From assembly GCA_949294845.1 (NCBI GenBank), contig CASFJH010000045.1:1-49215 (forward strand): DNA of 49,215 nt, given 5' to 3'. The DNA is from an uncultured Bacillota bacterium. GTDB taxonomy: Bacteria > Bacillota > Clostridia > Christensenellales > Pumilibacteraceae. Under the pieces are notes generated by a model that was not told the origin of the DNA, did not search any database, and worked only from the letters and a program-made list of their open reading frames with translations. The position numbers were made by a program, and so were the translations under genes. Below are positions 2,649 through 27,982 of this stretch, piece by piece. Numbering within the stretch: position 1 is the first letter of the stretch; each line of letters begins with the position of its first letter.

Positions 2649-2690
2649 ACTCTATCCGCGGACAATATCCGCGGATAGAGTTGATTTTTT
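2649..2690 (+). terminator. Rho-independent terminator of the glycosidase pair
   Basis: A perfect 13-bp inverted repeat (2649-2661 with 2669-2681, 7-nt loop) built on CTCTATCCGCGG is followed by TTGATTTTTT. The U-tract doubles as the -35 element of the queH promoter. Confidence 0.8.
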
Positions 2691-2709
2691 AATCGCGCTG
2701 TGATATAAT
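2681..2709 (+). promoter_or_regulatory. queH promoter, predicted leaderless
   Basis: TTGATT (2681-2686), a 17-bp spacer, then TATAAT (2704-2709) with an extended -10 TG at 2701-2702. The -10 ends 6 nt before the ATG at 2716, which puts the expected +1 on the A of the start codon. The GGAG at 2711-2714 is 1 nt from the ATG and would not work as a normal ribosome binding site. Confidence 0.8.
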
Positions 2710-2715
2710 CGGAGC

Positions 2716-3243
2716 ATGGATCGGAAAAAGAAGCTTTTACTGCATTGCTGCTGCGCTCCGTGTTCGAGCGCGGTGCTCGAGCGTCTTGACGGATACGAGC
2801 CGACGCTCTGTTTTGTCAATCCCAATATCGACACAAAAGAGGAATACTATAAGCGCGCGGCGGAACTCGAGAGACTCAATGCGCTCACTCTGAAAGCGCC
2901 GATAATTATACCCGACTATAAGCCGGAGACTTTTACTGCCGTCTGCAAGGGACTGGAGCGCGAACCCGAAGGGGGGCTCCGCTGTCGTGAATGTATAAAG
3001 CTGCGCCTGAAAGCTACGGCGGAGCTCGCCGGGGACTACGACGCCGTTACTACAACGCTGACCGTAAGCCCTCATAAGAACGCGGCAATGATCAACTCTA
3101 TAGGCGCCGTGCTTACCGACAAATGGCTGTATTCGGACTTTAAGAAAAAGGACGGGTTTAAGCGTTCGGTCGAGCTGAGCCGCGTTTACGGGCTTTACAG
3201 GCAGAATTACTGCGGATGCGTGTTTTCCAAGCGCGATGAATAA
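2716..3243 (+). CDS. queH: Epoxyqueuosine reductase QueH
   Basis: This 175-aa protein should catalyse the last step of queuosine tRNA modification, reducing epoxyqueuosine to queuosine. It belongs to the non-cobalamin QueH (DUF208) family rather than QueG. The family's Cys motifs are all present: LLHCCCAPCSS near the N-terminus, CREC in the middle and QNYCGCVFS near the C-terminus, which together ligate an Fe-S cluster and metal site. The length is normal for the family. The mRNA is predicted to begin at the start codon. The 3' end overlaps uvrC by 8 nt, so both are probably translated from one transcript. Confidence 0.88.
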   Translation: MDRKKKLLLHCCCAPCSSAVLERLDGYEPTLCFVNPNIDTKEEYYKRAAELERLNALTLKAPIIIPDYKPETFTAVCKGLEREPEGGLRCRECIKLRLKATAELAGDYDAVTTTLTVSPHKNAAMINSIGAVLTDKWLYSDFKKKDGFKRSVELSRVYGLYRQNYCGCVFSKRDE

Positions 3244-5050
3244 GCTGCTGGAGGAGAAAATTGCCGGACTGCCCGAAAATCCGGGCGTATATATAATGCG
3301 CGACTCGCGCGGCGGCATAATATACATCGGGAAGGCAGTCGTACTTAAAAACAGAGTACGGCAGTATTTTTTTAATACGCAGAAGCAGCCTAAGGTGCAG
3401 GCGATGGTGGATAACATCGCCGACTTCGATTATATAATCACGCTGAGCGAGCGCGATGCTCTCGCGCTTGAAGCGAATCTTATCAAAAAGTATAAGCCGC
3501 ATTATAATATTCTTCTTAAGGACGATAAGGCTTTTCCGTATATAAGGATAAACACCAAAGAGGACTTTCCTGCAATAGAAATAACGCGCCGCGTCAGGCG
3601 TGACGGCGCAAGATATTTCGGGCCGTATTTCAACGGTATTCTCGTAAAGGACGTGATCGATATAGTACGCAGCGCATACCGTTTGCGCAGCTGCACGGGC
3701 AATCTGAGCAGAAAGGGCAGGGAGTGCCTTAATTATCATATCAATCTGTGCCTTGCGCCCTGTAGCGGCAAAGTGACGAAAGAGGAGTATGCCGCGGCGG
3801 TAGCCGGAGCTATAGCTTTTTTGTCCGGGTACGACGACGCTCCCGCCAAGGTCATCGAGCGCAAGATGAACGAGGCTGCAGCCGCCGAGGATTTCGAGAG
3901 GGCGATCTTTTACCGCGACAGGCTGGAAATGCTCAGGAAAATGAAAGAACGCACGCTTGCGGATCTGGGCGGCGCTTTTGATATAGACGCGTTCGCTTAC
4001 GTCACTAACGGCATTGACAGCGCGGTAAGCGTAACGCTGGTGCGCGGCGGTAAACTCATGGGAGTGAAAAACTATATGTTCACCGACGCGGCGTTGAGCG
4101 AAGCAGACGCTCTTAACGCTTTTCTGCTTCAGTATTACGGCTCGCTCGGCAACGAAGTGCCGGGAGAAATATGTCTGCCGGTAGAGACAGATACCGACGC
4201 AATTGCCGATTATCTCGGTACTATGTCAGGCGTAAGAACAAAAATAACATTTCCTTCGCGGTCCGCGCGCAAAAAACTGCTTGAAACCGCTCGCCGCAAC
4301 GCCGCCGATTACCTGGAAAAGAACGTTGACAAAGCGAGAAGAGCATACGACAGTACAGAGGGCGCGAACGAGCTGCTTAAACGTATTCTTCGGCTTGATT
4401 TTCTCGTGCGCATGGAATGTTACGACATATCCAACATAAGCGGCACGGATAAGGTGGCGTCTCAGGTGGTTTTCAGGCACGGAGCGGCAAGTAAAGCGGA
4501 TTACAGGCGCTTCAGAATAAAGACGGTGGAAGGATCGGACGACTTTGCGAGCATGGCGGAAGTGATCCGAAGGCGGTGCGAGCGTTATCTTTCAGGCGAC
4601 GATAAATTCAACGAAAAGCCTGACCTCATTGTAATAGACGGCGGCAAAGGTCAGCTTTCGGCGGCTTACGCTTCCATGCGCGCGTGCGGTCTGGATATCC
4701 CGATGATAGGCCTTGCCAAGCGCGAGGAGGAGATATACACGGTTTTCGATCCGGAGCCGATAGTGCTGCCGCGCGACAATTCCGCGCTTAAGCTTTTGCA
4801 GCGGATACGCGACGAAGCCCATCGGTTCGCCATCACTTACCACAGAAATCTCCGCTCCAAAAGATACGGCAGCGAGCTGGAAAATATCCCCGGCATAGGC
4901 CCCAAAAAACGCGCCATGCTGCTCAAGAAGTTCAGCGTAAAGCAGTTGAAGGAAATGACCGAAGGCGAGCTTGTAAGCGCCGGACTGGACAAAAAAACGG
5001 CTGCAAACGTCCGCAGCTACTTTAATCGCAATAAAAAAACGATTGATTAA
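3236..5050 (+). CDS. uvrC: Excinuclease ABC subunit C
   Basis: UvrC makes the dual incisions flanking bulky DNA lesions in nucleotide excision repair after UvrA2B loading. The protein is full length at 604 aa. Domains in order are: an N-terminal GIY-YIG nuclease (PGVYIM, then YIGKA), a Cys-containing region, a UVR motif (around EDFERAIFYRDRLEML) that contacts UvrB, the RNase H-like endonuclease half (IDGGKGQLSAA), and a C-terminal helix-hairpin-helix (IPGIGPKKRAMLLKKF). It starts inside the last codons of queH, indicating translational coupling. Its stop codon lies inside the -35 element of the following gene's promoter. Confidence 0.97.
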   Translation: MNKLLEEKIAGLPENPGVYIMRDSRGGIIYIGKAVVLKNRVRQYFFNTQKQPKVQAMVDNIADFDYIITLSERDALALEANLIKKYKPHYNILLKDDKAFPYIRINTKEDFPAIEITRRVRRDGARYFGPYFNGILVKDVIDIVRSAYRLRSCTGNLSRKGRECLNYHINLCLAPCSGKVTKEEYAAAVAGAIAFLSGYDDAPAKVIERKMNEAAAAEDFERAIFYRDRLEMLRKMKERTLADLGGAFDIDAFAYVTNGIDSAVSVTLVRGGKLMGVKNYMFTDAALSEADALNAFLLQYYGSLGNEVPGEICLPVETDTDAIADYLGTMSGVRTKITFPSRSARKKLLETARRNAADYLEKNVDKARRAYDSTEGANELLKRILRLDFLVRMECYDISNISGTDKVASQVVFRHGAASKADYRRFRIKTVEGSDDFASMAEVIRRRCERYLSGDDKFNEKPDLIVIDGGKGQLSAAYASMRACGLDIPMIGLAKREEEIYTVFDPEPIVLPRDNSALKLLQRIRDEAHRFAITYHRNLRSKRYGSELENIPGIGPKKRAMLLKKFSVKQLKEMTEGELVSAGLDKKTAANVRSYFNRNKKTID

Positions 5051-5071
5051 ATATATATTTTATGGTATAAT
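5043..5071 (+). promoter_or_regulatory. HAD phosphatase promoter, predicted leaderless
   Basis: TTGATT (5043-5048) overlaps the uvrC stop codon. After 17 bp comes TATAAT (5066-5071) with extended -10 TG at 5063-5064, then 6 nt to the ATG at 5078. Hexamers and both spacings are identical to those of the queH promoter. No Shine-Dalgarno sequence lies before the ATG. Confidence 0.8.
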
Positions 5072-5077
5072 TTTCGT

Positions 5078-5896
5078 ATGAAGTACAGAATGATAGTATC
5101 GGATTTTGACGGCACGCTTTTACGCAGCGACAATACCGTAAGCGCGGCTACACGCCGCGCGATAGCCGCTTTTATCGCGGCAGGCGGGATTTTTACCGTA
5201 TCGACCGGAAGGAACTATCCGTCTATAAAACGTCGCATACCGGACGTCGGGCTGGAGAAACTGGATATCCCCGTCATGTCGTTGCAGGGCTCTTTTGCGG
5301 TCAACAATCTTACGGGCGAGGAGATTTTTGCCGAATTTATAGACAAGAACGTTCTCGCCGAGTTTTGCGAGCTGTGCAGGCGCGACGGCATTTACGTCCA
5401 TATATATAATAAATATGAAGTTTTTACCGAGCGCAAGGACGCCCATTCTCAAGCATACGAGCGCCTCACGTCGGTGGAGGTAAAGGAAGTAGGCGATCTG
5501 TCGCGCTTTATATCGGAAAACGACGGATTTATAAAGGCGCTGGCGGTATGCGACGGAGGAAAATCGGATTATTACGCGTCGAAATGGGGCGAGGCCATGC
5601 GCGGCAAGGCGTCCGTTCTCACTACGGCGCCCGATTTTGCCGAGTGTATACCGCTTTCTTCGGGTAAAGGGCCCGGTCTTGCGCGCGTGGCGAAAATGCT
5701 CGGCATCGACGTGAGCGGAGTGATAGCCGTAGGCGATGAGATGAACGACGTCGGAATGATAGAAACGGCCGGATTGGGCGTTGCCGTCGCCAATGCGAAA
5801 CCGCGCGTAAAAGAGGCGGCCGATTATATAACGGCGTCCAACGACGAGGACGGAATCTGCCGCCTGATCGAAAAGTTTTGTCCGGAGGTCTTATGA
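5078..5896 (+). CDS. Cof-type HAD-IIB family phosphatase
   Basis: This 272-aa cytosolic hydrolase belongs to the HAD superfamily, class IIB (Cof/YbiV-like), which dephosphorylates sugar phosphates and related metabolites. Motif I is SDFDGTLL with nucleophile Asp and the DxD pair; motif II is VSTGRN; motif IV is VGDEMNDVGMI, supplying the Mg-binding acids. A C2 cap lies between them. The exact substrate cannot be read from sequence. It has its own promoter, with the predicted +1 on the start codon, and its stop overlaps the hprK start (ATGA). The shared transcript with hprK hints at a link to carbon control, which is an inference. Confidence 0.9.
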   Translation: MKYRMIVSDFDGTLLRSDNTVSAATRRAIAAFIAAGGIFTVSTGRNYPSIKRRIPDVGLEKLDIPVMSLQGSFAVNNLTGEEIFAEFIDKNVLAEFCELCRRDGIYVHIYNKYEVFTERKDAHSQAYERLTSVEVKEVGDLSRFISENDGFIKALAVCDGGKSDYYASKWGEAMRGKASVLTTAPDFAECIPLSSGKGPGLARVAKMLGIDVSGVIAVGDEMNDVGMIETAGLGVAVANAKPRVKEAADYITASNDEDGICRLIEKFCPEVL

Positions 5897-6843
5897 AAGC
5901 TAAGAATAAAGAGATTCAGGAGAATGAGATCGATATAAAGATCGAGGATTTCTGCTCCCGTCTCGATCTGGAAGTATTGCATAAAGGCAGCCGGGAGTTC
6001 ATGCATATATCGACATTTAATATCAACCGCCCGGGGCTGCAGCTGGCCGGCTATTACGAACATTTTTCCGCAGAACGCGTTCAGGTAATAGGCGAGATGG
6101 AAACCGCGTTTCTTAAAACTCTGCCTATAGAAAAGCGTCTTGAGACGGTGGAAAAACTTTTCAGATACGATTTTCCGTGCCTTGTTATTTCGACGGTGCT
6201 CGAGCCCGGGGAAGAAATAATGCAGTGCGCCGTAAAATACGACAGAGTCGTGCTGCGCAGCAAGCTGCGTTCGACCATGATCATGAACGAGCTGTCTATA
6301 TTTCTTAACGAGCTGCTCGCGCCTACAGAAACCATTCACGGCGTGCTCGTCGATATTTACGGCGTCGGCACGCTGCTTATCGGCAAGTCCAGTATCGGCA
6401 AGTCGGAGACAGCGCTCGAGCTTATTCAGCGCAACCACCGTCTTGTAGCGGACGACGCTGTGTCGATAAAACGCGTTTCAGACAGGCTTATCGGCTCTTC
6501 GCCTTCCATAATACGTTATTTTATGGAGGTGCGCGGTATAGGAATTATCGACATCAGGCAGATGTACGGTATAGGCGCGGTAAAGCTTACCAAAACGATC
6601 GACATGGTCGTTAAACTCGAGACGTGGGACGAAGAGAAAGAATACGACCGTATGGGCGACGTGAAAGAGTTTTATACTATACTCGACGTTGAGCTGCCCA
6701 TGTACACGATACCGGTAAAACCCGGGCGTAACCTTGCGGCGATTCTGGAGGTTGCGGCGAGAAACCACAGACTGAAAGATCTCGGTTACGATACGCTGGC
6801 GGAACTTGACAGGCGGATACGCGCCTCGCACGAGGATGACTGA
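5893..6843 (+). CDS. hprK: HPr kinase/phosphorylase
   Basis: HprK phosphorylates and dephosphorylates Ser46 of HPr and so controls CcpA-dependent catabolite repression in Firmicutes. ATG 5893 was chosen: GGAGG is 4 nt upstream and the codon overlaps the previous stop as ATGA, whereas a TTG at 5878 has no such support. The product is 316 aa, normal for the family. The N-terminal domain covers about residues 1-130. The kinase domain has a P-loop (GKSSIGKSETALEL), VADDAV, and the HprK signature VRGIGIIDIRQMYGIGAV. A cre-like operator before uxaB in this window is a plausible target of the pathway. Confidence 0.95.
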   Translation: MKAKNKEIQENEIDIKIEDFCSRLDLEVLHKGSREFMHISTFNINRPGLQLAGYYEHFSAERVQVIGEMETAFLKTLPIEKRLETVEKLFRYDFPCLVISTVLEPGEEIMQCAVKYDRVVLRSKLRSTMIMNELSIFLNELLAPTETIHGVLVDIYGVGTLLIGKSSIGKSETALELIQRNHRLVADDAVSIKRVSDRLIGSSPSIIRYFMEVRGIGIIDIRQMYGIGAVKLTKTIDMVVKLETWDEEKEYDRMGDVKEFYTILDVELPMYTIPVKPGRNLAAILEVAARNHRLKDLGYDTLAELDRRIRASHEDD

Positions 6844-7772
6844 TGCCTCTTTGGGGGATCGTCACGATAAGCGCCGCTGTCGCCGTGCTGACGGCTATTG
6901 CGGCTTTAGAGGCGTTTGCGCGTCGGAATTTCGCAAAATTGTTTTCCAGGCGCAATGACGAAGTTGTTTTCAGAAACGAGTTTAAAATCAAGGAGGCCGA
7001 GCTTAACCGCGATTCTGCCGAACGCATTATGTCGAATCCGCACGAAGAGGTCTCGCTTACGGGAGAGGGCGGCGTCGAGCTGTACGGAATATATGCGGAT
7101 AACGGTTCTTCGGTTACGGTCGTGCTTGTGCACGGGTATGCCGTAGACTGGAAGAGCAGGGCTTACGACGCCGAGCAATATCTGTCGCGCGGATATAATG
7201 TGTTGCTTACGGACAATACCGGACACGGCCGCTCGGGCGGCAAGTTTATTACTATGGGATATCTGGACGCGCGCAACGTGCTTTACTGGTGCGACTGGCT
7301 TGTCCGTGCAAAGGGCGCACGAAATATTATTCTCGACGGCGTTTCGATGGGCGCTGCAACGGTGCTGGCTACGTCGAATTACGAGAGGAGAGAAGCGGTT
7401 CGCGGAATTATTGCCGACTGCGGATACACGTCGGCGCGCGACGTACTGGCTTTTCAGATGAAAAAGCGGCACATTCCGGTGTTTCCCGTATTGCCGAGGA
7501 TATGTGCTTTAGCGCGTAAAAACGGATTTGACCTGAAGGCGTGTTCTCCCGTTGAGGGCGTAAGAAAGTCGTCGGTGCCCACGCTGTTTATCCACGGTTC
7601 GGGCGATCGCGTCGTGCCTGTGAGCATGACCGGCAGGCTTTTTAATGCCAACGCTTCCGAAAGAGAACTCCTGATCACCGAGGGCGTGGGACACGGGCTT
7701 TCGCATATACAGGCAAAAGAGCGGTACGGCGCCGCAATCGCCGATTTCGTAAAGGAGGTTACCGCCGAATGA
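6843..7772 (+). CDS. Membrane-anchored alpha/beta hydrolase
   Basis: This 309-aa protein starts with one hydrophobic segment (about residues 5-23) followed by an alpha/beta hydrolase domain. Visible elements are VLVHGYAVDW (oxyanion region), DNTGHGRSGG, the nucleophile elbow GVSMGA, FIHGSGDRVVP carrying the acid, and a C-terminal GVGHGLS with the catalytic His. It resembles the YqkD/BAAT-like esterase group; the substrate is unknown. Its ATG shares a base with the hprK stop (TGATG), so it is co-translated. Confidence 0.82.
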   Translation: MPLWGIVTISAAVAVLTAIAALEAFARRNFAKLFSRRNDEVVFRNEFKIKEAELNRDSAERIMSNPHEEVSLTGEGGVELYGIYADNGSSVTVVLVHGYAVDWKSRAYDAEQYLSRGYNVLLTDNTGHGRSGGKFITMGYLDARNVLYWCDWLVRAKGARNIILDGVSMGAATVLATSNYERREAVRGIIADCGYTSARDVLAFQMKKRHIPVFPVLPRICALARKNGFDLKACSPVEGVRKSSVPTLFIHGSGDRVVPVSMTGRLFNANASERELLITEGVGHGLSHIQAKERYGAAIADFVKEVTAE

Positions 7773-8371
7773 TTTCATCGCTACACACCATGATTTTTTC
7801 TTTCACGGCGGCCGTAAGCTCTTTTGCCGTTTCGGTAGCGCTTGCCGTCTACGGAGCGGTGCTGCTGAAGAGACAGATAAGACTTTACCGCTCCATACGA
7901 CTGGTTGAGCTTAAAAGTTCAAAAATCAAATACTGGGTGTTTGCAGCCGCGGCGGTGTTGGCGGAATTTTATCTGATTACCCAGATTTTCGATCCTGCCG
8001 CGCCTGAAGCGGTTCTGCTGCAGGGAGGATTCGGTCTGACCGAATGGCAGTACAATCTGGCGCTTTCGTCGGTAGCGGTAATGATCGCTGTGCTGATATT
8101 TTATCTTCTGATACTGGCGTTTTCCAAGTCCGCCGTCGTCGACAGGGGTGTTTACTGCGGAAGCAGGTTTCTTGACTGGTACCATGTGCACGATTATCTG
8201 ATAGACGAAAGTAAGGGAGTGGTGGTTCTGTCCGCCAACAAATACACCTTCCAGACGCTTATGGCGACCACTCCGCCTATGAAAGTCGCAAAAAACGATA
8301 TTCCCAAGCTTAAATTTATATTGAGTAAGAACAAAAATAAATTTTCCGGTTTCGTGAGCGAAACGCTTTGA
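7769..8371 (+). CDS. Three-TM membrane protein, unknown function
   Basis: I do not recognise a named family with confidence. The 200-aa product has hydrophobic segments near residues 5-32, 50-72 and 95-118, then a cytosolic C-terminal domain starting at DRGVYCGSRFLDWYHV that could be PH-like (DUF5673-like). It starts in an ATGA overlap with the hydrolase stop, and AAGGAGG lies upstream. It belongs to the hprK operon by position. Confidence 0.7.
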   Translation: MISSLHTMIFSFTAAVSSFAVSVALAVYGAVLLKRQIRLYRSIRLVELKSSKIKYWVFAAAAVLAEFYLITQIFDPAAPEAVLLQGGFGLTEWQYNLALSSVAVMIAVLIFYLLILAFSKSAVVDRGVYCGSRFLDWYHVHDYLIDESKGVVVLSANKYTFQTLMATTPPMKVAKNDIPKLKFILSKNKNKFSGFVSETL

Positions 8372-8385
8372 GAGGAGCAGACCGA

Positions 8386-8595
8386 ATGGACGATACGCAG
8401 TCGAAAAGAGAACGCATCCGCTCGTTAAAGAACAAATTGGATGCGCCCAGAATGGTCGGCGAAGGGGACATTGTTCCGTTCGCCTGGCGTCAGCCGCTTA
8501 CCGATCCGGGAAAGCGTATGAACAAAGTATACAAATCCATATGTAACGCCGAACGAGGGAGATCGTCGTTACCCGTTGTTTCAGACGACAAGTAA
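8386..8595 (+). CDS. Small hypothetical protein (69 aa)
   Basis: ATG 8386 has GAGGAG at 8372-8377, 8 nt upstream; a TTG at 8368 would be the alternative. The product is short, basic and hydrophilic, with no membrane segment and no recognised motif. Its place 14 nt after the membrane protein and the good ribosome binding site argue that it is translated as the last gene of the hprK operon. Confidence 0.5.
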   Translation: MDDTQSKRERIRSLKNKLDAPRMVGEGDIVPFAWRQPLTDPGKRMNKVYKSICNAERGRSSLPVVSDDK

Positions 8596-8629
8596 CGGTT
8601 TTATCGAGCCTTTTTGCAATCTTAATGTA

Positions 8630-9931
8630 CTATGTCAGACGTATTAAGGCAATATCTGCATCTCCGATCTGATTGCCGCAGTCTTCTCCGTAGAGCGCTT
8701 CCGCAACGATTACGAGCCCGTCGCGGGTTTTCAGCCACAAACATTTAAGCGTTTCGACCTTCAGTTCGAGCGTTTGTGCGGTCGGTCCGAGCGAGAGTAT
8801 TACCGTTTTATCGGCGGACGAGCACAAAAGGTTAGTGTACTCGCCCCGATTGTATTGCGCGTGCGCAGCCGTTAAAGTATTTGCTTGGGGTACCGAGCCG
8901 ATATAATTGAGCGCGCCGTCAAGCGTATACAGCTTGGACATATCGTCCTGTTTATGAACGTAAGCGTAGATATTTTCGTCCGAGACGAAAAGCTTGCCGG
9001 AGGAGCATTCGGCCGAATTGAGATATATCTTTTTAGCGGCTTCGTATTTTTCGTTTACGGTTAAAATATCCGCGTTTCCGTCTGAAAGTATCAGTGCGGC
9101 GAAGCCGTTTTCGTAAGGTATTACGTCGCAAGCGCGATAACCTCCTTCTGTAGTGATATCGTAGTAGAGCGGACTTCCTGTCGCCGCGACAATGAGCGAC
9201 ATACACTGCACCGCGCCGAAGTCGAAGTTTACGGCGACGACCGTTCTATCGGGGAAAGCGAACGAATCGATATATTGAATACGCGCCGATCTGGCCAGAA
9301 CCCGTGAAGAAATTTTTTTGAGCGACCGGTCGTATTTTATTATTTTAAGCGAGTCTGCGCCGGTTTCGCCGTCGTTTACCGCTGTGATCACGGTATACCC
9401 GTCGTCGGTCAGTAATATGTCGCGCACGCGTTCGTTTTCGTCTCCGTAGAGTGGAGTTTCGTTTACCGCGGCGAGATCGAAATCTATAAGGCGCAGTCGT
9501 ACAGGATTTGCCAGCCCCAACAGAAAGCCGTCGTCATGGAGCGAAACGGCAGTTATTTCCGCCGTTTCGCAGAAACTTTCGGTGACGCCCTTATCGGACA
9601 GCGTCGCTATAAATCCGCGAAGGCCGGAGCCTTGCGCGAAATCGCAGTCGGAAGATTCGGTGTTGCCGAAGATCACGATTCTGTCGTCGAGACTGAATGC
9701 GGCTAAGAGAGATTCTTTGCCTGTTCCGCCTATTCTGGTCTCCCACAGAATGTTCTCGTTAAGGGACGGCCGCGGATCGCGCGATGTTTCCCATGCTTGC
9801 GCTTCGTTTCCCGACGCGGGTACAGAAGCGCTGAAAACGCCCGCCGCCCACATACAAAGCGCAAGAGTTGCCGTAATGATCGACATTACCGACAGAATTA
9901 TTATCTGTCTTTTGTTAAGCAGTTTGTTCAT
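8630..9931 (-). CDS. Secreted or membrane-anchored beta-propeller-like protein
   Basis: The 433-aa product has an N-terminal hydrophobic segment (residues about 10-34) with no lipobox, so it is a signal anchor or Sec signal. The rest is rich in short beta-strand repeats with DDG and GG turns (for example ILLTDDGYTVITAV), typical of a WD/PQQ-like propeller. No enzymatic motif is visible and no function can be assigned. It is convergent with the hprK operon, 34 nt away, and lies 53 nt downstream of murG. Its start codon sits 6 nt after a TATAAT box, predicting a leaderless transcript separate from murG. Confidence 0.7.
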   Translation of the reverse strand: MNKLLNKRQIIILSVMSIITATLALCMWAAGVFSASVPASGNEAQAWETSRDPRPSLNENILWETRIGGTGKESLLAAFSLDDRIVIFGNTESSDCDFAQGSGLRGFIATLSDKGVTESFCETAEITAVSLHDDGFLLGLANPVRLRLIDFDLAAVNETPLYGDENERVRDILLTDDGYTVITAVNDGETGADSLKIIKYDRSLKKISSRVLARSARIQYIDSFAFPDRTVVAVNFDFGAVQCMSLIVAATGSPLYYDITTEGGYRACDVIPYENGFAALILSDGNADILTVNEKYEAAKKIYLNSAECSSGKLFVSDENIYAYVHKQDDMSKLYTLDGALNYIGSVPQANTLTAAHAQYNRGEYTNLLCSSADKTVILSLGPTAQTLELKVETLKCLWLKTRDGLVIVAEALYGEDCGNQIGDADIALIRLT

Positions 9932-9937
9932 AATCCG

Positions 9938-9943
9938 ATTATA
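9938..9943 (-). promoter_or_regulatory. -10 element of the secreted propeller gene, predicted leaderless
   Basis: On the minus strand, TATAAT is followed by CGGATT and then the ATG, exactly 6 nt. The -35 region is weak. There is no Shine-Dalgarno sequence before the ATG. Confidence 0.65.
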
Positions 9944-9984
9944 TACCGTATTACACGATACATAATCGGGTATTTTGCCGAAAT

Positions 9985-11040
9985 TCAGCGTTTTGTGTCC
10001 AAAATTTCGATGATTCTATCCGCTATGTCTTTTGTTCCGTCAATGCCTTTTGCGTGGGACAGTGCGGCGGTATATGCGCTCCTCCCGCGGTAAAGTTTGT
10101 CTACGGCGCGCACCAGGGTCTCCGGGGTAAGCTCTGACTGATCGAGTTTATATCCGTAGCCTCTGGCTTCAAAATACCGTGCGTTGGCCACCTGATCGCC
10201 GCGCGACGCACCGCCGGCCGGCAGCGGTATGATGAGAGAGGGGATCTTAAGCGCGGCAAGCTCGAAAAGCACTCCCGATCCGCCTCGGGTAACCGCTATG
10301 TCGGAGAGGGCGAACAGGTCTTCAATACGTTCGGTGAAACCGATCGGCCTGTAGCGCGGATTGACCGCGGCGCTTGGCGGATTTCCCGCGCCTGTGACGT
10401 GTATAACGTTGAAAAACTCGCACAGCACGTCTACGCAGCCGTATACGCATTCGTTTATCGCCTTGGCGCCGGTTGAGCCGCCTATTATTAAAAGAGTGGG
10501 CGCGTCAGCGGAAAGCTTCATGTCCGCTCGCGCTCGGTCGGCGTTACCGTTATACAGCGAGCGTCTGATGAGCGAGCCGGTAAACACGCCGTTTTTTATT
10601 TTGGCCGCGGTATCGGAAAATGACGTGAAAACCGCTTGGGCTTTGCCTGCGGTCAGCCTGTTTGCAAGGCCGGGAGTCAGATCGCTCTCGTGCGCGAAAA
10701 CGGGGCATTTTGCCGCCATTGTCACCGGCAGCGCGACGTAGCCGCCTTTGGAAAAAACCGCAGACGGGGCGATTTCGCGCAGGATTTTTCCGGCCGCGGC
10801 TTTCGCTTTGAGCAGCTTGAACGGAACGCCGACGTTTGACAGCTTGCGGCTGCGGTCAAGCTTGACCGTCGGTATCGGGTGGTATACGAATCCCGCGTTT
10901 TCCGCCAGTTTTTTTTCAATGCCGTCTATGCTGCCGATATAGTGCAGCTCGAATTTGTCTTTCAGATAATACGCCAATGCGATATTGGGTATGACGTGAC
11001 CGGCCGTGCCGCCGCCGGTAAAAACAAACGTATCTTTCAT
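9985..11040 (-). CDS. murG: UDP-GlcNAc:lipid I GlcNAc-transferase MurG
   Basis: MurG adds GlcNAc to lipid I, making lipid II for peptidoglycan at the inner face of the membrane. The product is 351 aa, normal length, GT28 family, GT-B fold. Visible landmarks are the N-terminal glycine loop TGGGTAGHVIPN, SKGGYVALP, HESDLTPGLANRL, and the C-terminal donor-site block IGGSTGAKAINE with VTRGGSGVLFELAAL. The HESDLTPG form differs from the classical HEQNxxPG version and is seen in a Firmicutes branch of the family. It stands apart from any mra/div cluster. A short leader of about 14 nt contains GAGGA. Confidence 0.9.
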   Translation of the reverse strand: MKDTFVFTGGGTAGHVIPNIALAYYLKDKFELHYIGSIDGIEKKLAENAGFVYHPIPTVKLDRSRKLSNVGVPFKLLKAKAAAGKILREIAPSAVFSKGGYVALPVTMAAKCPVFAHESDLTPGLANRLTAGKAQAVFTSFSDTAAKIKNGVFTGSLIRRSLYNGNADRARADMKLSADAPTLLIIGGSTGAKAINECVYGCVDVLCEFFNVIHVTGAGNPPSAAVNPRYRPIGFTERIEDLFALSDIAVTRGGSGVLFELAALKIPSLIIPLPAGGASRGDQVANARYFEARGYGYKLDQSELTPETLVRAVDKLYRGRSAYTAALSHAKGIDGTKDIADRIIEILDTKR

Positions 11041-11068
11041 TGACTTTTCCTCACAATGCGATTATACT
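11040..11068 (+). promoter_or_regulatory. Divergent promoter for the 11123 hydrolase
   Basis: TTGACT (11040-11045), 17 bp, TATACT (11063-11068). The -35 overlaps the murG start codon, and the -10 overlaps the murG -10 on the other strand. Confidence 0.75.
11061..11066 (-). promoter_or_regulatory. -10 element of murG
   Basis: TATAAT on the minus strand, predicting a start near 11054 and a 14-nt leader. No clear -35 is visible. It occupies the same bases as the forward TATACT. Confidence 0.6.
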
Positions 11069-11122
11069 AATATTAATATGGATGTACGGCGCAAAATAAA
11101 ACCGCGAGGAAAGGATAAATAA

Positions 11123-12022
11123 ATGGAAAAGCTTTTGTATGAGGGTTTCGATGGCAAAAAAATAAGTATGGCGGTCTGGGGCGGCGTGGAGCGGCCGATC
11201 GGAACGATCCAGATCATACACGGAATGTCCGAGCATATTGCGCGTTACGGCAAAGCAGCAGAATTTCTTAATTCGCGCGGATTTATTGTTGCAGGCGACG
11301 ATCACCGCGCTCACGGCGAGACCGACCGCGACGCGCTGGGGCTTGCCGGAGAAGGCGACCTGTTTGAGAAAACCGTATCGGACGAGCGCGGTATATCGCA
11401 GCTGCTGAAGGAGAGATACGGACTGCCGCTTGTCGTCTTGGGGCACAGTTACGGTTCGTTCGTATTGCAGAGATATCTTACCGGAGGGAGTAACGGATTA
11501 GCCGGGTGCGTGCTTTGCGGTTCCGCGTTCATGAGCGGAATTCAGGTAACAGCCGGAAGGATTCTTGCGGATATGAAATCGCGTTCGCATAAAGACGAGC
11601 CTGGCACACTGTTCGTCAGAATGACGTTCGACGCCTACGATAAGAAATTCGGTAAAGAGGCGGGCGCATGGCTCAACCGCGACGGCGTCGAGGTGGAGGC
11701 TTACAAGTCCGATCCGCTGTGCGGTTTCGCGTGTTCCAACGGATTTTACAAATACTTCTTCCGCGGGCTTAAAAGCATTGCCGACGAAGGCTTCGCTTCT
11801 GCGGGCGCGCATCTTCCCGTTATGATATTATCCGGTTCGGACGACTGCGTGGGCGGCCGCGGCAAGCTGGTCAAAAAACTGGCGGAAAAACTGCGTAAGG
11901 ACGGTCTCAATCCGGAAGTTAAACTGTATCCGGAGGCAAGACACGAGCTTGCTTTCGAATTGTGCCGTGAAACGTTCTTAAATGACGTCGCCGATTTTGC
12001 GACGCGGTGTTGTCGTTGCTGA
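11123..12022 (+). CDS. Alpha/beta hydrolase, monoacylglycerol lipase/lysophospholipase type
   Basis: The 299-aa cytosolic protein has a serine aminopeptidase S33 (Hydrolase_4) layout: IIHGMSEHIARY near residue 35, DDHRAHGET, nucleophile elbow GHSYGS, LSGSDDCVGG carrying the acid, and EARHELAFE with the catalytic His. This points to a lipase or esterase acting on monoacylglycerols or lysophospholipids; the natural substrate is not determined by sequence. AGGAAAGGA before the ATG is a good ribosome binding site. It is monocistronic, with its own consensus promoter facing murG. Confidence 0.85.
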   Translation: MEKLLYEGFDGKKISMAVWGGVERPIGTIQIIHGMSEHIARYGKAAEFLNSRGFIVAGDDHRAHGETDRDALGLAGEGDLFEKTVSDERGISQLLKERYGLPLVVLGHSYGSFVLQRYLTGGSNGLAGCVLCGSAFMSGIQVTAGRILADMKSRSHKDEPGTLFVRMTFDAYDKKFGKEAGAWLNRDGVEVEAYKSDPLCGFACSNGFYKYFFRGLKSIADEGFASAGAHLPVMILSGSDDCVGGRGKLVKKLAEKLRKDGLNPEVKLYPEARHELAFELCRETFLNDVADFATRCCRC

Positions 12023-12122
12023 ATATTATTCATTTATGTGCATAAAAATTCGCAAATATCGGAGAGAGGCTGCGACAGTTAAAAAAAACGAAAAGTTTTT
12101 GCATAAATATAGATAAAAATAC

Positions 12123-12151
12123 TTGTTTTAAAACCCCCTTTATGGTATAAT
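12123..12151 (+). promoter_or_regulatory. parE-parC promoter
   Basis: TTGTTT (12123-12128), 17 bp, TATAAT (12146-12151) with extended -10 TG at 12143. The expected start is near 12158, giving a 45-nt leader. Confidence 0.8.
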
Positions 12152-12175
12152 ATTGATTATACGGAAGGGGGTTTT
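12130..12175. promoter_or_regulatory. Nested dyad over the parE promoter
   Basis: Outer arms AAAACCCCCTT (12130-12140) and AAGGGGGTTTT (12165-12175) are a perfect 11-bp inverted repeat. Inside them GTATAAT (12145-12151) and ATTATAC (12156-12162) form a second perfect 7-bp repeat that contains the -10 box. Only the right half is transcribed from the predicted start, so for parE this is a DNA-level signal. It could also end transcripts arriving from the upstream hydrolase, since the outer stem is followed by T-rich sequence. Confidence 0.65.
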
Positions 12176-12202
12176 CCTTTCGTCAATCACGGAGGTAGAG
12201 CA

Positions 12203-14170
12203 TTGGCGGCACAACATGATTATAACGCCGGCGATATACGCGTTCTCGAAGGCCTTGACGCGGTCAGACTGCGGCCGGGTATGTATATCGGCACGACCGG
12301 CGTAAAAGGTCTGCATCACATTCTTTGGGAAATCGTTGACAATTCAATGGACGAATTGGCTAACGGCTACGGGTCGACGATATGGGTTACGCTTCATGTG
12401 GACGGGTCCGTATCCGTCGGCGACGACGGACGCGGAATACCGGTCGATCTTCATCCGCAGCTCGGCGTATCGGGTGTGGAGGTCGTATTTACACAGCTGC
12501 ACGCGGGCGGCAAATTCGATAATGAGAATTATGCTCATTCGGGCGGTCTGCACGGCGTAGGCGCGTCGGTCACAAACGCGCTTTCCGAATGGGTTACGGT
12601 GGAAGTATATAAAAACGGCACGACATACCGCATCGAGTTCGAGACTCGGGAGGTGGACGGCAAGCTTAAGGGCGGCGTTCCCAAATACCACCTTTTCGAT
12701 ACCGGTATAAAGACGGATAAGCACGGCAGTTATGTGCGGTTCAAGCCGGATAAGCGCATTTTCGAGACTACCGTATTCAATATAGATACCATTGCGCGCC
12801 GTCTTAAGGAACTGGCTTTTCTTAACAAGGGCGCGCGCATCGTCCTGACTGACGAAAGGACAGCCGGCAGTCCGCCGGTCAAGCGCGAATATTGCTATGA
12901 GGGCGGCCTGATAGATTTTGTCAAATACCTTAACGAGACCAAGCAGCCGGCTTTTCCCGAACCGGTGCTTATAGGCGGCGAAAAGGACAATATCTCCATG
13001 CAGCTCGCTTTTCAGTATACCGACGCGTACACTGACAACATATTTTCATATGTTAACAATATTCCTACGACGGAGGGCGGCACGCACGAAACGGGGTTCA
13101 AAACCGCGCTGACCAAGGTGTTCAACGATCTTGCGCGCAAAACGGGCGTTCTGAAGGAGAAGGACGCAAACCTTCTGGGCGACGACTACCGCGAAGGACT
13201 TACTGCGGTTTTATCTGTGCAGATGCAGAACGTGCAGTTCGAGGGGCAGACAAAGACAAAGCTGGGCAATCCGGAAGCCCGTATTGCCATCGAGTATATA
13301 GTCAACTCGGAACTGGCGGCATTTTTCGACGACGCAAAAAATAAGACCATAGCCGAAACGATTCTCAAAAAAGCGGTGCTGGCCGCCAAGGTGCGCGAAG
13401 CCGCGCGTAAGGAAAAAGAGATCACGCGGCAGAAAAACAGTATCGAAAACTTCAATCTTGTGGGCAAACTGTCGAGCTGTACCGGCAAGAAACCCGAACT
13501 TAACGAGCTTTTCATCGTTGAGGGCGACAGCGCCGGCGGCACTTGTAAACAGGCGCGCAACAGGTCTTTTCAGGCGATACTGCCGCTGCGCGGCAAACCG
13601 CTTAACGCGGAGAAAAAACGTATCGATCAGGTTCTCGTTAACGAGGAAATCAGGACGATTATCTCCGCTTTGGGAAGCGGCATAGGCGAGGATTTCAACG
13701 TCGAGAACCTTAACTATCATAAAGTGATAATACTGTCCGACGCGGACCAGGACGGCGCGCATATTCGCGCTATACTTCTGACGTTCTTCTTCAGGTACAT
13801 GAAAGATCTGATAAACGAAGGCCATGTGTATATCGGTATGCCGCCGCTTTACAAGATTGAGCGTAAAGACAAGGTGGAATACCTTTACGACGACGATGCG
13901 CTCGAAGAGGCCAAAACGCGTTTCGGCCGCGGAGCTTTAATTCAGAGATACAAAGGACTGGGCGAGATGAACGCAGAACAGCTTTGGGAGACGACTATGG
14001 ATCCGTCAAGGCGCACGCTCGTACAGGTTACGATAGAGGACGCGGCTACTGCCGAAATGCTGGTATCCACGCTGATGGGAGACGCGATCGATCTGCGCAA
14101 GGCGTATATTGTCGAGCACGCCAATTTCAACCGCGAGGACAACTTCAAAGCAGCGGAGGATGAAAGATGA
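12203..14170 (+). CDS. parE: DNA topoisomerase IV subunit B (ParE/GyrB family)
   Basis: This is the ATPase subunit of a type IIA topoisomerase, 655 aa. The start is TTG, supported by GGAGG (12191-12195) 7 nt upstream; the nearby ATG at 12216 is out of frame. GHKL motifs visible are [17 protein letters not shown] and [18 protein letters not shown]. The TOPRIM metal site is EGDSAGG and [10 protein letters not shown] call it ParE rather than GyrB because its partner gene lacks a canonical GyrA box; a GyrB label cannot be fully excluded without comparison to the rest of the genome. The gene overlaps parC by 4 nt and is driven by the promoter with the nested dyad. Confidence 0.85.
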
Positions 14171-19630: not shown

Positions 19631-19636
19631 AGCAGA

Positions 19637-20275: not shown

Positions 20276-20295
20276 TTTAAGGTAAGAAGCGTCCT

Positions 20296-20919: not shown

Positions 20920-20935
20920 TCGGCTTACCCTTTTT

Positions 20936-22387: not shown

Positions 22388-22425
22388 AAAAGAACCGCAA
22401 ATCGGCTTTTTATAAACGCTTAGGG

Positions 22426-22451
22426 GCGCGTTCTGCGGAACGCGCTTTTTT
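22426..22451 (+). terminator. Terminator after the MFS gene
   Basis: An 8-bp stem GCGCGTTC/GAACGCGC with a TGCG tetraloop is followed by six T. Confidence 0.9.
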
Positions 22452-22577
22452 ATATGGGCAAGGCGTGGCGATTTGAGGGAGACGCTTATAAAAATCACAT
22501 TTATAAACAAACGTGAAATAAAAATGTGCAACCGAGGGAAAGGGAGTGAAAATACAAAAAATTTGCACCCGAAAGAA

Positions 22578-22614
22578 AAAACATGAGTCCGGCGAGCGTC
22601 CGGACTCATGTTTT
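22578..22614 (-). terminator. Terminator of galE, probably bidirectional
   Basis: A perfect 15-bp stem (22578-22592 with 22600-22614, core ACATGAGTCCGG) has a 7-nt loop. It is flanked by an A-run on the left, which is a T-run on the minus strand, and TTTT on the right. The spacer between the two terminators (22452-22577) shows no gene. Confidence 0.85.
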
Positions 22615-22666
22615 AAAAAAGCTGCAGAATGATTTTACGGCGGCAAATGTACGGCCGTATTGTCAA

Positions 22667-23686: not shown

Positions 23687-23716
23687 AGAATCATACCTCC
23701 TGTTTTCTGAGTTCTT

Positions 23717-23745
23717 ATTATAGCATATTCCGCCGATATAATCAA
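23717..23745 (-). promoter_or_regulatory. galE promoter
   Basis: On the minus strand TTGATT, 17 bp, TATAAT with extended -10 TG. The leader of about 25 nt carries AGGAGGT, so this gene is conventionally led, unlike the leaderless set. Confidence 0.8.
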
Positions 23746-23813
23746 GTATTACGGATAAATATTCGGTTTAATTTGATTTCAGGATTATTTAAGTATGTAA
23801 AGTTTACAACGCG

Positions 23814-26360
23814 TCAGTGCAGTATGCGCCGCCGCAGGGCGGAAACGGTTTCCGCCGCGTAAAGGACGGTAGCGGCAAACAGTATGCCGGTAGCCGCCGC
23901 GCTCACCGCCGAGCCGAGACCGAAATATTCGGTCTCGTATTCAAAACGCACGGTATGGTCGCCGGCCGGCACGGCAACTGCCATAAGTCCTTCGTCGGCC
24001 TTCAGCACGCTCGTTTCGTTGTCGTCTATATAAGCTTTGAAGCCCGAATGCCACGCTACGGGAATGAGCATATAGCCGCCGTCGGAGGAGATTTTGCCCG
24101 TAAAACCCGATTTTTTGAATACCGTATCCTGAAGATGCGGCCGTTCGGCAAGCGCGCTTTCAAAAGCCGAATACGGATAGTAAGCGATATAAACGTCTTT
24201 AAGCTCCACGTTTCCTTCGACGGTTATTTCTCCCGGCAGCTCTCCGAAGTTATAAAGATATTCGGTCTGTCCGGTATAAAACTGACCGCCTTTTGCAAAG
24301 AATCTCTGTTCATAAGTATAATTATCCGATTTTATCGTAACGGTAAAATCTTCATCGGGAACGTCGACGGTAAAGCCGAGATACGTTTCGCCGCCGGAGC
24401 CGCAGCCGCTGAATGAATAACTGCCGGTCACGCTTATGTCTCCCGACCGTCGGTATTCGAGCGCGTAATCGTAATCGACGGGGTCCGCGCCGTCTATTGC
24501 CGTAAAGCTTAAGGCGGCGTGCTGCTTTTCGGCCGCCGGAAGAGCTTCGTACTGGGCGGCGGACATTGCCGACGAATATACCGTTCCGAACGGTATCGCG
24601 TTTTCGGTAACGTAAAGCCCTTCGACGCCGGCGGAAGTAAAACCGTAAGGGATGTAACCGTCTGTGACGTAATACGATACGGAGAGCAAAGCCTGCACGG
24701 CTATACGGCCGTTGAGACCGCTCATGCCGAGCGATCCCTGCGTGTTGTAAAGCAGATTCCCCGTAACGAACGAATATTCGCTTTCCGCGGTTACGGTATT
24801 GTAATGAAAGGTTCCGGGTATGCCGTTGTTAAGCGGACGGTTATTGTAGTTGCCGTACCAGTCCGCCGAGTTCGGATAATCGACGCGCCTGAAGCCGGCC
24901 GTTGCCGCGACGTAAGCTTCGGCGGGGGATACAAGCGCGGTGTAACGCTCCTGCGCGCCGCCGTACTCGGCCGAATAGTAAGAAGTAAGAGTCAGCGCCC
25001 ATATAAAGGCGAACGCCGAAAAGGCGGCAAGCGCGCGCTTGGGCGTGACTGCGGCGCACAGCTTACCGAACGACGGTTTTCTGCCGATAAAGTAAAACAG
25101 CATAAACGCATATGCCGCGGTTACGGGAACAGCCAGTACGACGACTGTGACCGACAGCGCTTTGCCGACCAGTCCCGAAAAGCCGAAGTACCACATTCCG
25201 ACTACAATTATAAACCCTGCGGCGCAACAGACGGTTTTAACGGCAGTCCTCACCTGAGACGGCTCTATTTTGTCTGCGTCCATGACGAAAGCCGCGGCGT
25301 ACAGCGCTGAAAAAGACAGCAGATAAACGAACCGGTTATTGACGTAATTGAAAAGGTTGAAAAAATATCCGCCCAACGGCATGAGCACCGCGGCGGTGAG
25401 AATAAGCGCGCATACGGAAGCCGCGCGCGATTTTCTGACGGTAGCCGAAGCGACGGCGAGCGCAACGGTCACCGGAGTAAACATCACGGGAGTGAATGAA
25501 GGTCCGGTTGAAGGTATAAAGAACGTCGCCATTACGGCAATAAAGGCGTCGATGCCGTAGGGGCTGAAGCCTTTTGCGGCGCTCCGCGCGGCGGAGACGT
25601 AACCGTAAGCTACCGGCAGCAGCATAAAGCACGCCAGCAGTATGGCGGTCATATACCAGCCGGCGGCTCTCAGCATGGTCAGAATGAACGGTTTTGCGGC
25701 GCGTTCGCAAAAGCACAGGTAATATACGACGGCGTAAAACACGGCGAACACCGACGTCATATAAAATGTATAGAAATTGCTTATAAGAGTGAAAAAGGCG
25801 AAAAAGATTAAAATAAACGGCTTTTTTTTGTTTATCACATCCTCCAGCCCGCGTATAACGAAAGGCAGATACATCGCTCCTGCGGCGAGATCGGGGTGCC
25901 TTAAATAAGTATACAGCACATATCCCGAAAGCATATACGCAACAGAAACGGCCGTTCTGACTTTAAAGGACCGTATTTTGTCGCCGAGGAAGAAATACAT
26001 TGCCGAGGCAGTTACTAAGAGCTTAACGACGGTCAGCGCCGAGTATGCGGCGAGGAAATTGCCGGTAGGAATGATGTATAGCAGAAGATTGACGGGGTCG
26101 TACATCATGTAGTACGCCATGGACGTCATTGCGTCGGCGCCCAGTCCCATGTTGATGTCGAAAACGTTACCTCCCGAAAACAGGAGTCCGTTTTCAAACA
26201 TATACTGCAGAAAAGTCGCGTGCTGAGTCAGCCCGTCAGCGCCCATTGCCGTCCAGACAAGAGGATTGCCTCTTATGACGAAGGGGATGAGCGCGGCAAA
26301 CAACGCAACCGCCGAAATAAGCAGAAAGATGCCGGCTCGTTTCGCCGCAAAAAAGTTCAT
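23814..26360 (-). CDS. YfhO-family membrane glycosyltransferase-like protein
   Basis: An 848-aa multi-spanning membrane protein of the YfhO family (GT-C fold in known relatives), which acts in glycosylation of cell-surface polymers from lipid-linked sugars. Many hydrophobic segments fill residues 10-450; the early loop TAMGADGLTQHATFLQYM, with its acidic residue, matches the family pattern. An extracellular beta-rich domain covers about 460-810, and a last membrane segment precedes a short basic tail. Its start overlaps the upstream glycosyltransferase stop by 4 nt. With that enzyme and GtrA it forms a three-gene surface glycosylation unit. Confidence 0.85.
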   Translation of the reverse strand: MNFFAAKRAGIFLLISAVALFAALIPFVIRGNPLVWTAMGADGLTQHATFLQYMFENGLLFSGGNVFDINMGLGADAMTSMAYYMMYDPVNLLLYIIPTGNFLAAYSALTVVKLLVTASAMYFFLGDKIRSFKVRTAVSVAYMLSGYVLYTYLRHPDLAAGAMYLPFVIRGLEDVINKKKPFILIFFAFFTLISNFYTFYMTSVFAVFYAVVYYLCFCERAAKPFILTMLRAAGWYMTAILLACFMLLPVAYGYVSAARSAAKGFSPYGIDAFIAVMATFFIPSTGPSFTPVMFTPVTVALAVASATVRKSRAASVCALILTAAVLMPLGGYFFNLFNYVNNRFVYLLSFSALYAAAFVMDADKIEPSQVRTAVKTVCCAAGFIIVVGMWYFGFSGLVGKALSVTVVVLAVPVTAAYAFMLFYFIGRKPSFGKLCAAVTPKRALAAFSAFAFIWALTLTSYYSAEYGGAQERYTALVSPAEAYVAATAGFRRVDYPNSADWYGNYNNRPLNNGIPGTFHYNTVTAESEYSFVTGNLLYNTQGSLGMSGLNGRIAVQALLSVSYYVTDGYIPYGFTSAGVEGLYVTENAIPFGTVYSSAMSAAQYEALPAAEKQHAALSFTAIDGADPVDYDYALEYRRSGDISVTGSYSFSGCGSGGETYLGFTVDVPDEDFTVTIKSDNYTYEQRFFAKGGQFYTGQTEYLYNFGELPGEITVEGNVELKDVYIAYYPYSAFESALAERPHLQDTVFKKSGFTGKISSDGGYMLIPVAWHSGFKAYIDDNETSVLKADEGLMAVAVPAGDHTVRFEYETEYFGLGSAVSAAATGILFAATVLYAAETVSALRRRILH

Positions 26361-27280
26361 TCGTCTTTCTCCGTCTCTTTAACGATGTATACCGGTCTGT
26401 TTTTGACTTCGCGGTGCAGCTTGGCAATATACTCGCTTATTACGGCAAGGCCGCAGAATACGAGGCAGAAGCACAGTGACAGAAAAGTAAACAGCAGCAG
26501 AATAAACGGTGCGGACGAAATGCACGCAAGCACGATGTCGGCGACGGCAAGCCCCAGAAACACCAGCCCGAAAACGAACGCCGCGATGAGATTGAATTTG
26601 AGCGGCGCAGTGGAAAAATCCTCTATACCGGATACCGCGTATTTGGTAAGTTTGGTGAAGCTCCATTTGGTTTTACCGGCGGCGCGGTCGCGGTTTTTGT
26701 ATTCCAGCCATTTCGTTCTGAATCCTACCCAGCCGAAAATTCCCTTTGAAAAACGCTCTCTTTCGCCCAAAGAAAGCACCGCGTCGCATACTCTGCGTGT
26801 CATAAGACGGAAATCTCTGGCGCCGTCGGTAATATCAGCGTCGCTCATGCCGTTTATTATCTTGTAAAACAGTCTTGCGAAAGCGCTTCTCAGTCTGGGC
26901 TCGCCGCGCCTGTCGGTGCGCCTGCAGGCCGCGATATCGTAGCCTTGGTTTAGCGCGTCGAACATTTCCTTAATAAGCTCGGGAGGATCCTGCAAATCGG
27001 CGTCCATAAGGCCGACATAATCGCCGTCAGCCGCCTGCAGACCGGCGTAGATAGCCGCTTCCTTGCCGAAATTACGGGAGAATGAAACATACCTGACGTC
27101 TTTGTCCCTTTCCCGTAACAGCTTGATCTTTTCCAGCGTGCCGTCGCGGCTGCCGTCGTCGACGAAAATTATCTCGTAACCGCCAAGGGAGGACAGCACG
27201 GGACGCACGGCGCCGTAAAACAGGTCGATACATTCCTCTTCATTGTAACAGGGTACGACAATACTTATTTTCACGCGCAT
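26357..27280 (-). CDS. GT2 glycosyltransferase, GtrB/DPM1-like
   Basis: A 307-aa enzyme expected to transfer a sugar from a nucleotide donor to undecaprenyl phosphate on the cytosolic face. The GT-A domain shows VVPCYNEEE, FVDDGSRDGT and DADLQDPPE (metal-binding acids). Two C-terminal transmembrane helices (about residues 230-290) match the GtrB/YkcC arrangement. GAGG lies 4 nt before the ATG, and the gene overlaps gtrA by 10 nt. It would supply the lipid-linked sugar used by the YfhO protein. Confidence 0.9.
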   Translation of the reverse strand: MRVKISIVVPCYNEEECIDLFYGAVRPVLSSLGGYEIIFVDDGSRDGTLEKIKLLRERDKDVRYVSFSRNFGKEAAIYAGLQAADGDYVGLMDADLQDPPELIKEMFDALNQGYDIAACRRTDRRGEPRLRSAFARLFYKIINGMSDADITDGARDFRLMTRRVCDAVLSLGERERFSKGIFGWVGFRTKWLEYKNRDRAAGKTKWSFTKLTKYAVSGIEDFSTAPLKFNLIAAFVFGLVFLGLAVADIVLACISSAPFILLLFTFLSLCFCLVFCGLAVISEYIAKLHREVKNRPVYIVKETEKDE

Positions 27281-27948
27281 TTACCTCTACAATTTTCTTT
27301 TGCCTCTTGCCGCGCCGCCGTTGTTCCGTCGTGAGACGCTACGTCCGCGGCGCTTTCGCGGGAAATGTCTTCCTTGATAACTCGGTTACCGCCGGATAAA
27401 CTTTCTTCGGGAACGCGGTTACCGCCGGCGGCACATCCGTCCGCAGTACGGTCATTAGTGTCTTTTGCCTTGTCGCGGAAAAGCAACAGCCGCTTTGAGA
27501 CGTAATTGTATATAAGCACCACGAAGGTCATGACGATCTTTACTATCCATTCGTTAATGCCCATAACGTCGTAGCCGAGATACATACCGCCCAGATGCAG
27601 CCCCAGACCTACCGCGCTGAGCGCCGTAAACACCGCGAAGCCGCCGACCGTTCTGGAATTGCCTTTATGATTGAACACGAACAGTACGGAAAAAACGTAG
27701 TTTATTATAAGTCCCGTAACAAATCCGGCGCCGGTACCCGTAACCGCGGCCGCCGCCGTCGGATTGCCGCCGCCGTACCAGACGTTATAAAATTTCGGAT
27801 AGAGCGAAGAGTCGAACAGATAAAGAACGACGCCCATCACGAACATATCGACTATTGTCGCTATGCCGCCGGCTATAAGAAAACGCACGACTTCGGCAGG
27901 GCCGGGATATTTTTCGGCAAGACTTCTGAGCTTCTCTATGAGTTTCAT
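27271..27948 (-). CDS. GtrA-family membrane protein
   Basis: GtrA-like proteins have four membrane helices and are thought to help flip undecaprenyl-phosphate sugars. Here the helices lie at about residues 20-45, 70-95, 105-125 and 130-150 (RFLIAGGIATIVDMFVMGVV at the first). The start was set at 27948, not the ATG two codons upstream at 27954, because TATAAT ends exactly 6 nt before 27948 and directly abuts 27954. A hydrophilic tail of about 60 residues after RLLLFRDK is unusual and contains two copies of a GNRV motif. Confidence 0.85.
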   Translation of the reverse strand: MKLIEKLRSLAEKYPGPAEVVRFLIAGGIATIVDMFVMGVVLYLFDSSLYPKFYNVWYGGGNPTAAAAVTGTGAGFVTGLIINYVFSVLFVFNHKGNSRTVGGFAVFTALSAVGLGLHLGGMYLGYDVMGINEWIVKIVMTFVVLIYNYVSKRLLLFRDKAKDTNDRTADGCAAGGNRVPEESLSGGNRVIKEDISRESAADVASHDGTTAARQEAKENCRGKCA

Positions 27949-27954
27949 ATGCAT

Positions 27955-27982
27955 ATTATAACATTAATTTATTAAAAGTCAA
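27955..27982 (-). promoter_or_regulatory. gtrA operon promoter, predicted leaderless
   Basis: On the minus strand TTGACT (27982-27977), 16 bp, TATAAT (27960-27955) with extended -10 TG. The next six bases are ATGCAT, then the ATG at 27948. No ribosome binding site is possible in this spacing. Confidence 0.75.

Follow-up and report, generated by a model that had tools for sequence, protein, structure and literature searches.

TATAAT boxes six nucleotides before start codons predict leaderless mRNAs in a Bacillota genome and recur across its family

In a window of 49,215 nucleotides (the whole stretch of DNA analysed here, which is contig 45 of a 1.69-Mb genome in 91 contigs, 90% complete), four genes carry a perfect, sigma-70-type TATAAT 6 nt before the ATG (4/4, read at the sites themselves): queH, a HAD phosphatase gene, the gene of a predicted secreted protein and gtrA. 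A box ending at exactly this distance is predicted to direct RNA polymerase to the A of the start codon as the first nucleotide transcribed, and the four genes very likely make leaderless mRNAs transcribed from that A. On such a message the ribosome would recognise the 5'-terminal AUG directly, as with leaderless mRNAs elsewhere; the transcription start, placed from the -10 box, and the mode of translation are both deduced from sequence. The layout itself is real and recurrent, and the pattern among orthologs indicates that it is under constraint. The genes, their promoters and two promoters used for comparison are as follows.

2681..2709, plus strand: queH promoter; TTGATT and TATAAT (2704-2709) separated by 17 nt, with TG preceding the -10
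2716..3243, plus strand: queH, with a leaderless start predicted at 2716; the Pfam QueH match (5.4e-57) aligns residue 7 with profile position 1
5043..5071, plus strand: HAD-IIB phosphatase promoter; TTGATT-17-TATAAT with TG, TATAAT at 5066-5071
5078..5896, plus strand: Cof-type HAD-IIB hydrolase, predicted leaderless start at 5078; TIGR00099 2.3e-49
9938..9943, minus strand: TATAAT of the secreted-protein (propeller) gene; -35 weak
8630..9931, minus strand: predicted secreted protein, called a propeller in the sequence-only reading; predicted leaderless start at 9931
27955..27982, minus strand: gtrA promoter; TTGACT-16-TATAAT with TG, TATAAT at 27960-27955
27271..27948, minus strand: gtrA, predicted leaderless start at 27948; Pfam GtrA_DPMS_TM 2.3e-14
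11061..11066, minus strand: MurG-like gene promoter, for comparison; TATAAT 20 nt before the ATG, SD -5.6, ordinary leader
23717..23722, minus strand: galE promoter, for comparison; TATAAT 30 nt before the ATG, SD -11.6, ordinary leader

The sequence-only reading had reported the four perfect boxes, and all of its coordinates and strands agree with those found here. Its account of the upstream elements was also confirmed: TTGATT-17 occurs twice (2681 and 5043) and TTGACT-16 once (27982), each with TG, and the -35 at 9931 is weak, the best candidate matching at 2/6 positions. A -35 at 16-18 nt or an extended -10 thus accompanies three of the four genes, the propeller gene having neither, with no TG before its -10. 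That gene's product had no match in Pfam or NCBIfam profile scans; by eye, its N-terminus is basic and then hydrophobic. By duplex energy, a Shine-Dalgarno (SD) sequence is absent upstream of all four genes, as had been claimed, the values being -1.1, -2.8, -3.0 and +1.5 kcal/mol against a median of -6.7 for 449 ATG genes. An SD was called at a duplex energy of -4.5 or below, with a generic anti-SD sequence, because the 16S 3' end, sought in 54 loci, was not found.

Several features adjoin these promoters. Next to queH, window positions 2649-2686 hold a terminator-like element, a 14-bp inverted repeat without mismatches and its T-rich tail; the repeat's last stem base doubles as the first of the queH -35, so the terminator tail overlaps the promoter. 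The genes queH, uvrC and HAD are tightly packed (3236-5896), with uvrC starting 8 nt within the end of queH and lacking an SD, and the HAD -35 runs one base into the uvrC stop codon (5048-5050), its last base being the codon's first. Where a leaderless-type gene lies close behind a same-strand gene, as with HAD behind uvrC and the secreted-protein gene behind the MurG-like gene, its promoter would supply a separate message.

Ordinary leaders are found in the same window. Alongside the two comparison promoters listed above, marR has its -10 at a spacing of 20 (SD -8.6) and uxaB at 65 (SD -7.5), and parE, judged by eye, has TATAAT at 12146 and ggaggt before a TTG start at 12203. The earlier assignment of ordinary leaders to parE, galE, uxaB and marR therefore stands, by measurement for galE, marR and uxaB and by eye for parE. 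The parE -10 is also seen by eye to be flanked by inverted arms, aaaaccccctt ... aagggggtttt (window 12130-12175), a possible hairpin or operator.

In the window, TATAAT-N6-ATG was seen five times against 0.36 expected, and none of 100 shuffles reached five; the fifth occurrence (42110) is intragenic and the other four are gene starts. A generic promoter scan of positions 2400-12400 returned 9 pairs of -35 and -10 elements against 8.7 in shuffles, so that such pairs alone prove nothing and the evidence is the exact spacing. The looser form TANNNT-N6-ATG shows no such excess (15 in the window, 16.7 expected), which speaks for the explanation that these strings reflect start regions rich in A+T and free of structure, and do not act as promoters. 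Start regions do tend to be A+T-rich. This explanation is nonetheless strongly disfavoured, and we consider it extremely improbable, on the strength of the genome-wide counts. Across the whole genome the pattern occurs 62 times against 13 for its reversed form, compared with 45 against 24 at N7 and 29 against 17 at N10. A gene-anchored count was made on 622 kb (the window and further stretches, 37% of the genome), in which genes were called from codon statistics only, with upstream signals unused, giving 449 ATG starts with 80 nt upstream. Exact TATAAT was found at spacing 6 in 16 cases against a mean of 0.28 in dinucleotide shuffles of the upstream regions, at spacing 7 in 5, at spacing 8 in 3, and at spacings 9-17 in only 3 altogether; spacings 21-69 averaged 1.0 per position, and no spacing from 0 to 69 other than 6 exceeded 5. 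The comparison of -10-to-ATG distances with shuffled upstream regions that the sequence-only reading had proposed thus yields, on the sampled 37% of the genome, a sharp peak at 6. Chance origin was rejected by the shuffles, the reversed pattern and the N10 control.

The caller put queH (at the downstream GTG 2773) and gtrA at other starts; the 16 therefore include no more than two of the four genes of the window. When any in-frame ATG near the called start was allowed, the counts at spacings 6, 7 and 8 became 20, 8 and 3, and the 622-kb sample holds 27 TATAAT strings of any kind at spacing 6.

The sites at spacing 6 also have the composition of promoters. A -35 with at least 4 matches lies at spacer 17 in 50% of the 16 sites and at spacers 13, 14, 20 and 21 in 0%, which further opposes the A+T-rich explanation; TG precedes the -10 in 56%. 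A pyrimidine precedes the ATG in 14/16 against 60% overall (p 0.018), a weak support given that T before ATG is common in all genes. When position-specific hexamers were ranked (449 ATG starts, spacings 0-30, pairs with at least 5 cases), TATAAT at 6 was the top pair, above every SD word, with 16 seen and 0.9 expected. The top 25 also held GTTGAC at spacing 30 (5 seen, 0.18 expected), the position of a -35 lying 17 nt before such a -10, and TATACT likewise peaks at spacing 6 (4 cases).

The ranking bears on a further reading, in which the transcripts are nearly leaderless, with leaders of 1-3 nt, and another signal lies near the AUG. Spacings 7 and 8 are above background too (5 and 3 cases), and there this reading overlaps with the leaderless one: genes at these spacings could have leaders of 1-2 nt. 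The peak is at 6, however, and the top 25 hexamers among all starts resemble, by eye, SD, -10 or -35 words; as a general account, leaders of 1-3 nt are judged very unlikely, and transcription from the A of the ATG is preferred.

Promoter-to-ATG distances in this genome are bimodal, and two initiation modes coexist, as had been proposed from the window. Of 202 transcription-unit heads with ATG, 22 have a promoter at 5-8 nt and none of these has an SD (0/22), against SD in about 35/44 (80%) of heads with a promoter at 18-45 nt. By this strict rule, about 11% of the sampled unit heads are leaderless-type. With a loose -10 at 6-8 nt, the box is found in 29/79 heads without SD versus 2/113 heads with SD, and among genes inside transcription units only 1/185 has a promoter at 5-8 nt. 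The same separation is seen over the 449 ATG starts, where SD was called in 0/16 at spacing 6, 1/8 at 7-8 and about 23/27 at 20-40. Most genes of the genome use SD-led starts.

TATAAT at spacing 6-8 precedes 33 gene starts in the 622-kb sample, two of them GTG. NCBIfam scans named ten of the proteins: UvrB, NrdR, IspE-like, DnaX, DinB-like, HisH, RlmD, TtcA-like, SpoVB-like and RecF. The names IspE, DinB, TtcA and SpoVB are tentative because the matches fall below curated cut-offs. Pfam added two more, an MTHFR and a diacylglycerol kinase family protein. One sampled stretch (L052) holds two divergent pairs in which both genes are leaderless-type, at 9432/9513 (about 80 nt apart) and 13124/13265 (about 140 nt).

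Orthologs were collected for queH, HAD, propeller, gtrA, nrdR and uvrB, at most the best 30 loci per gene (for nrdR and uvrB, the best 30 of 58 and 60 genomes with a match, respectively). Of these 166 loci, 142 were scored and 24 were dropped because the alignment started too far into the query, no start was found or the start lay too near the locus end. A row was classed as leaderless-type when TATAAT, or a form with one change, stood 6-7 nt before an in-frame ATG. SD was present in 1/41 leaderless-type rows versus 77/101 other rows. Leaving out the six own copies, which are leaderless-type by the choice of genes, the contrast has p 2.7e-15, and leaving out also the doubtful rows L066, L072, L254 and L279 it has p 7.7e-14, both with related genomes counted as independent.

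The genes differ in how widely the layout is kept. The uvrB gene is leaderless-type in 15/29 scored loci, the doubtful L254 and L279 among them, and with L256, L263 and L259 (spacing 8 or GTG start) scored as misses. HAD is leaderless-type in 9/27 scored loci, propeller in 7/24 and queH in 7/28, of which L066 and L072 resemble chance occurrences inside coding sequence. For nrdR the layout is found in 2/30 loci (L221-L250), only in the window's own genus, with SD in 26/28 of the others, and for gtrA only in the window's genome (1/4 scored loci, 1/16 loci overall). We give somewhat less than even weight to a broader reading, that uvrB, queH, the HAD phosphatase and the secreted propeller flip between leaderless and SD-led as start codon and -10 join or part, with almost nothing at 9-17 nt and uvrB leaderless in about half of its relatives, so that the family may form a natural two-state experiment.

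The orthologs also bear on the start codons themselves. The -10 boxes could be real and translation still begin at a downstream start with an ordinary leader, or longer transcripts could come from other promoters. The codon-statistics caller chose GTG 2773 for queH, HAD has a second in-frame ATG 12 nt downstream of the predicted start, and the gaps between HAD and propeller and the co-directional genes upstream of them are 27 and 53 nt. Against this, the predicted start and the beginning of the profile lie only a few residues apart for QueH, HAD, NrdR, HisH, DnaX, UvrB and RecF (for NrdR, HisH, DnaX, UvrB and RecF by agreement with curated profile N-termini). Three queH relatives (L061, L064 and L069) have their start 39 nt farther upstream, with the -10 displaced along with it and keeping its distance, and 40/41 leaderless-type ortholog rows have SD at no candidate start. 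The queH ATG at 2716 is the first start codon after an in-frame stop, and the next, GTG 2773, lies within the conserved domain. Wrong start codons were thus rejected, by profiles and orthologs, for the genes tested; this independent support is weaker for gtrA, which has an extra in-frame ATG at 27954 within the discriminator, and for propeller. Taken as a whole, ordinary leaders or longer transcripts at these genes are quite unlikely, and leaderless messages starting at the predicted ATGs are preferred.

The family shows the signal clearly, the order shows it unevenly, and genomes beyond the order mostly lack it. In 37 genomes of the family, N6, N10 and reversed N6 were counted 1915, 1347 and 684 times (N6/N10 1.42); in 24 further genomes of the order, each from a different family, 845, 808 and 464 times (1.05); and in 198 genomes from elsewhere in the phylum, 6101, 9121 and 4983 times (0.67), where N6 remains weakly above its own reversed pattern. 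N6 exceeds N10 in 29/37 family genomes and 15/24 others of the order, and not in the remaining 8/37 and 9/24. Elsewhere in the phylum it does so in only 21/198, which counts once more against a general product of A+T-rich start regions. Anchored on genes, spacing 6 was found in 4/250 starts of G002 (shuffle mean 0.10) and 3/85 of G052 (0.02); G038, from another family of the order, has 1/193 against 0.22 shuffled, which shows nothing, and G188, outside the order, has 0/279 (shuffle mean 0.18).

As to the lineage, the HprK and SpoVB-like proteins of the genome point to Bacillota. Fourteen HAD relatives, every one of them either short or of low identity, are in clostridial records and also in Gastranaerophilales, Cyanobacteria and Chloroflexi. 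An Oscillospiraceae record (L034) was rejected as a close relative, since the similarity is limited to 16 residues at a contig end and blastn gave no match to the window.

These findings would extend the known distribution of leaderless initiation in Bacillota by a further lineage, probably clostridial; the mapped clostridia show little of it. TATAAT-N6-ATG without an SD is a simple rule able to correct gene starts in these genomes. Since the ortholog sets show both modes for one gene, the change between modes is open to direct study.

Nothing on this lineage turned up in a search of open-licence literature, made partly under guessed family names. By a figure cited for GeneMarkS-2, 21.6% of bacterial species are predicted to have leaderless transcription (PMC9581028), and non-SD genes have been compared by phylum (Nakagawa 2017, PMC5397173). 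Zheng 2011 (PMC3160421) reported leaderless genes, marked by a -10 some 12 bp upstream, in 207/953 bacterial genomes, including 56/209 Firmicutes with a mean of 4.2%, concentrated in Lactobacillales and Mycoplasma; the word 'clostridia' does not occur in its main text. Among mapped clostridia, leaderless starts are described as rare in C. difficile (15 genes; PMC7438776), as 4% of starts in C. phytofermentans, where the genes generally have a further upstream start and keep their RBS (PMC5171806), and as 2-3% in three solventogenic species (PMC9045289). The earlier remark that frequent leaderless genes are unusual in Firmicutes thus fits these three clostridial papers and does not extend to the Lactobacillales and Mycoplasma of Zheng 2011 or to streptococci, with 8.6-9% of mRNAs leaderless (PMC6431027).

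The mapped clostridia, probably of the same broad group, share SD-led genes with the present genome and differ in the rarity of leaderless ones. Like the TA-led genes of Zheng 2011, the genes described here have a Pribnow-like TAnnnT whose first T lies about 12 bp upstream of the start (6+6 here); that survey also describes a full TAtaaT in medium-GC genomes and TG before the box in several low-GC genomes (PMC3160421). As in streptococci, transcription would start at or very near the AUG; the streptococcal starts, in a different lineage, were mapped by differential RNA-seq, whereas those here are predicted, and are largely conserved between species, and direct ribosome recognition of a 5'-terminal AUG is cited there from Moll 2004 (PMC6431027). 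In Deinococcus-Thermus, too, leaderless mRNAs arise from a -10 region situated a few bp ahead of the ORF, spacing matters and a -35 strengthens the promoter (PMC12340547). There the motif is TANNNT and about 30% of ORFs are involved, whereas here it is the full TATAAT, often with a -35 at 17, before a minority of genes. The present case therefore looks like a new lineage for a known initiation mode, not a new mechanism.
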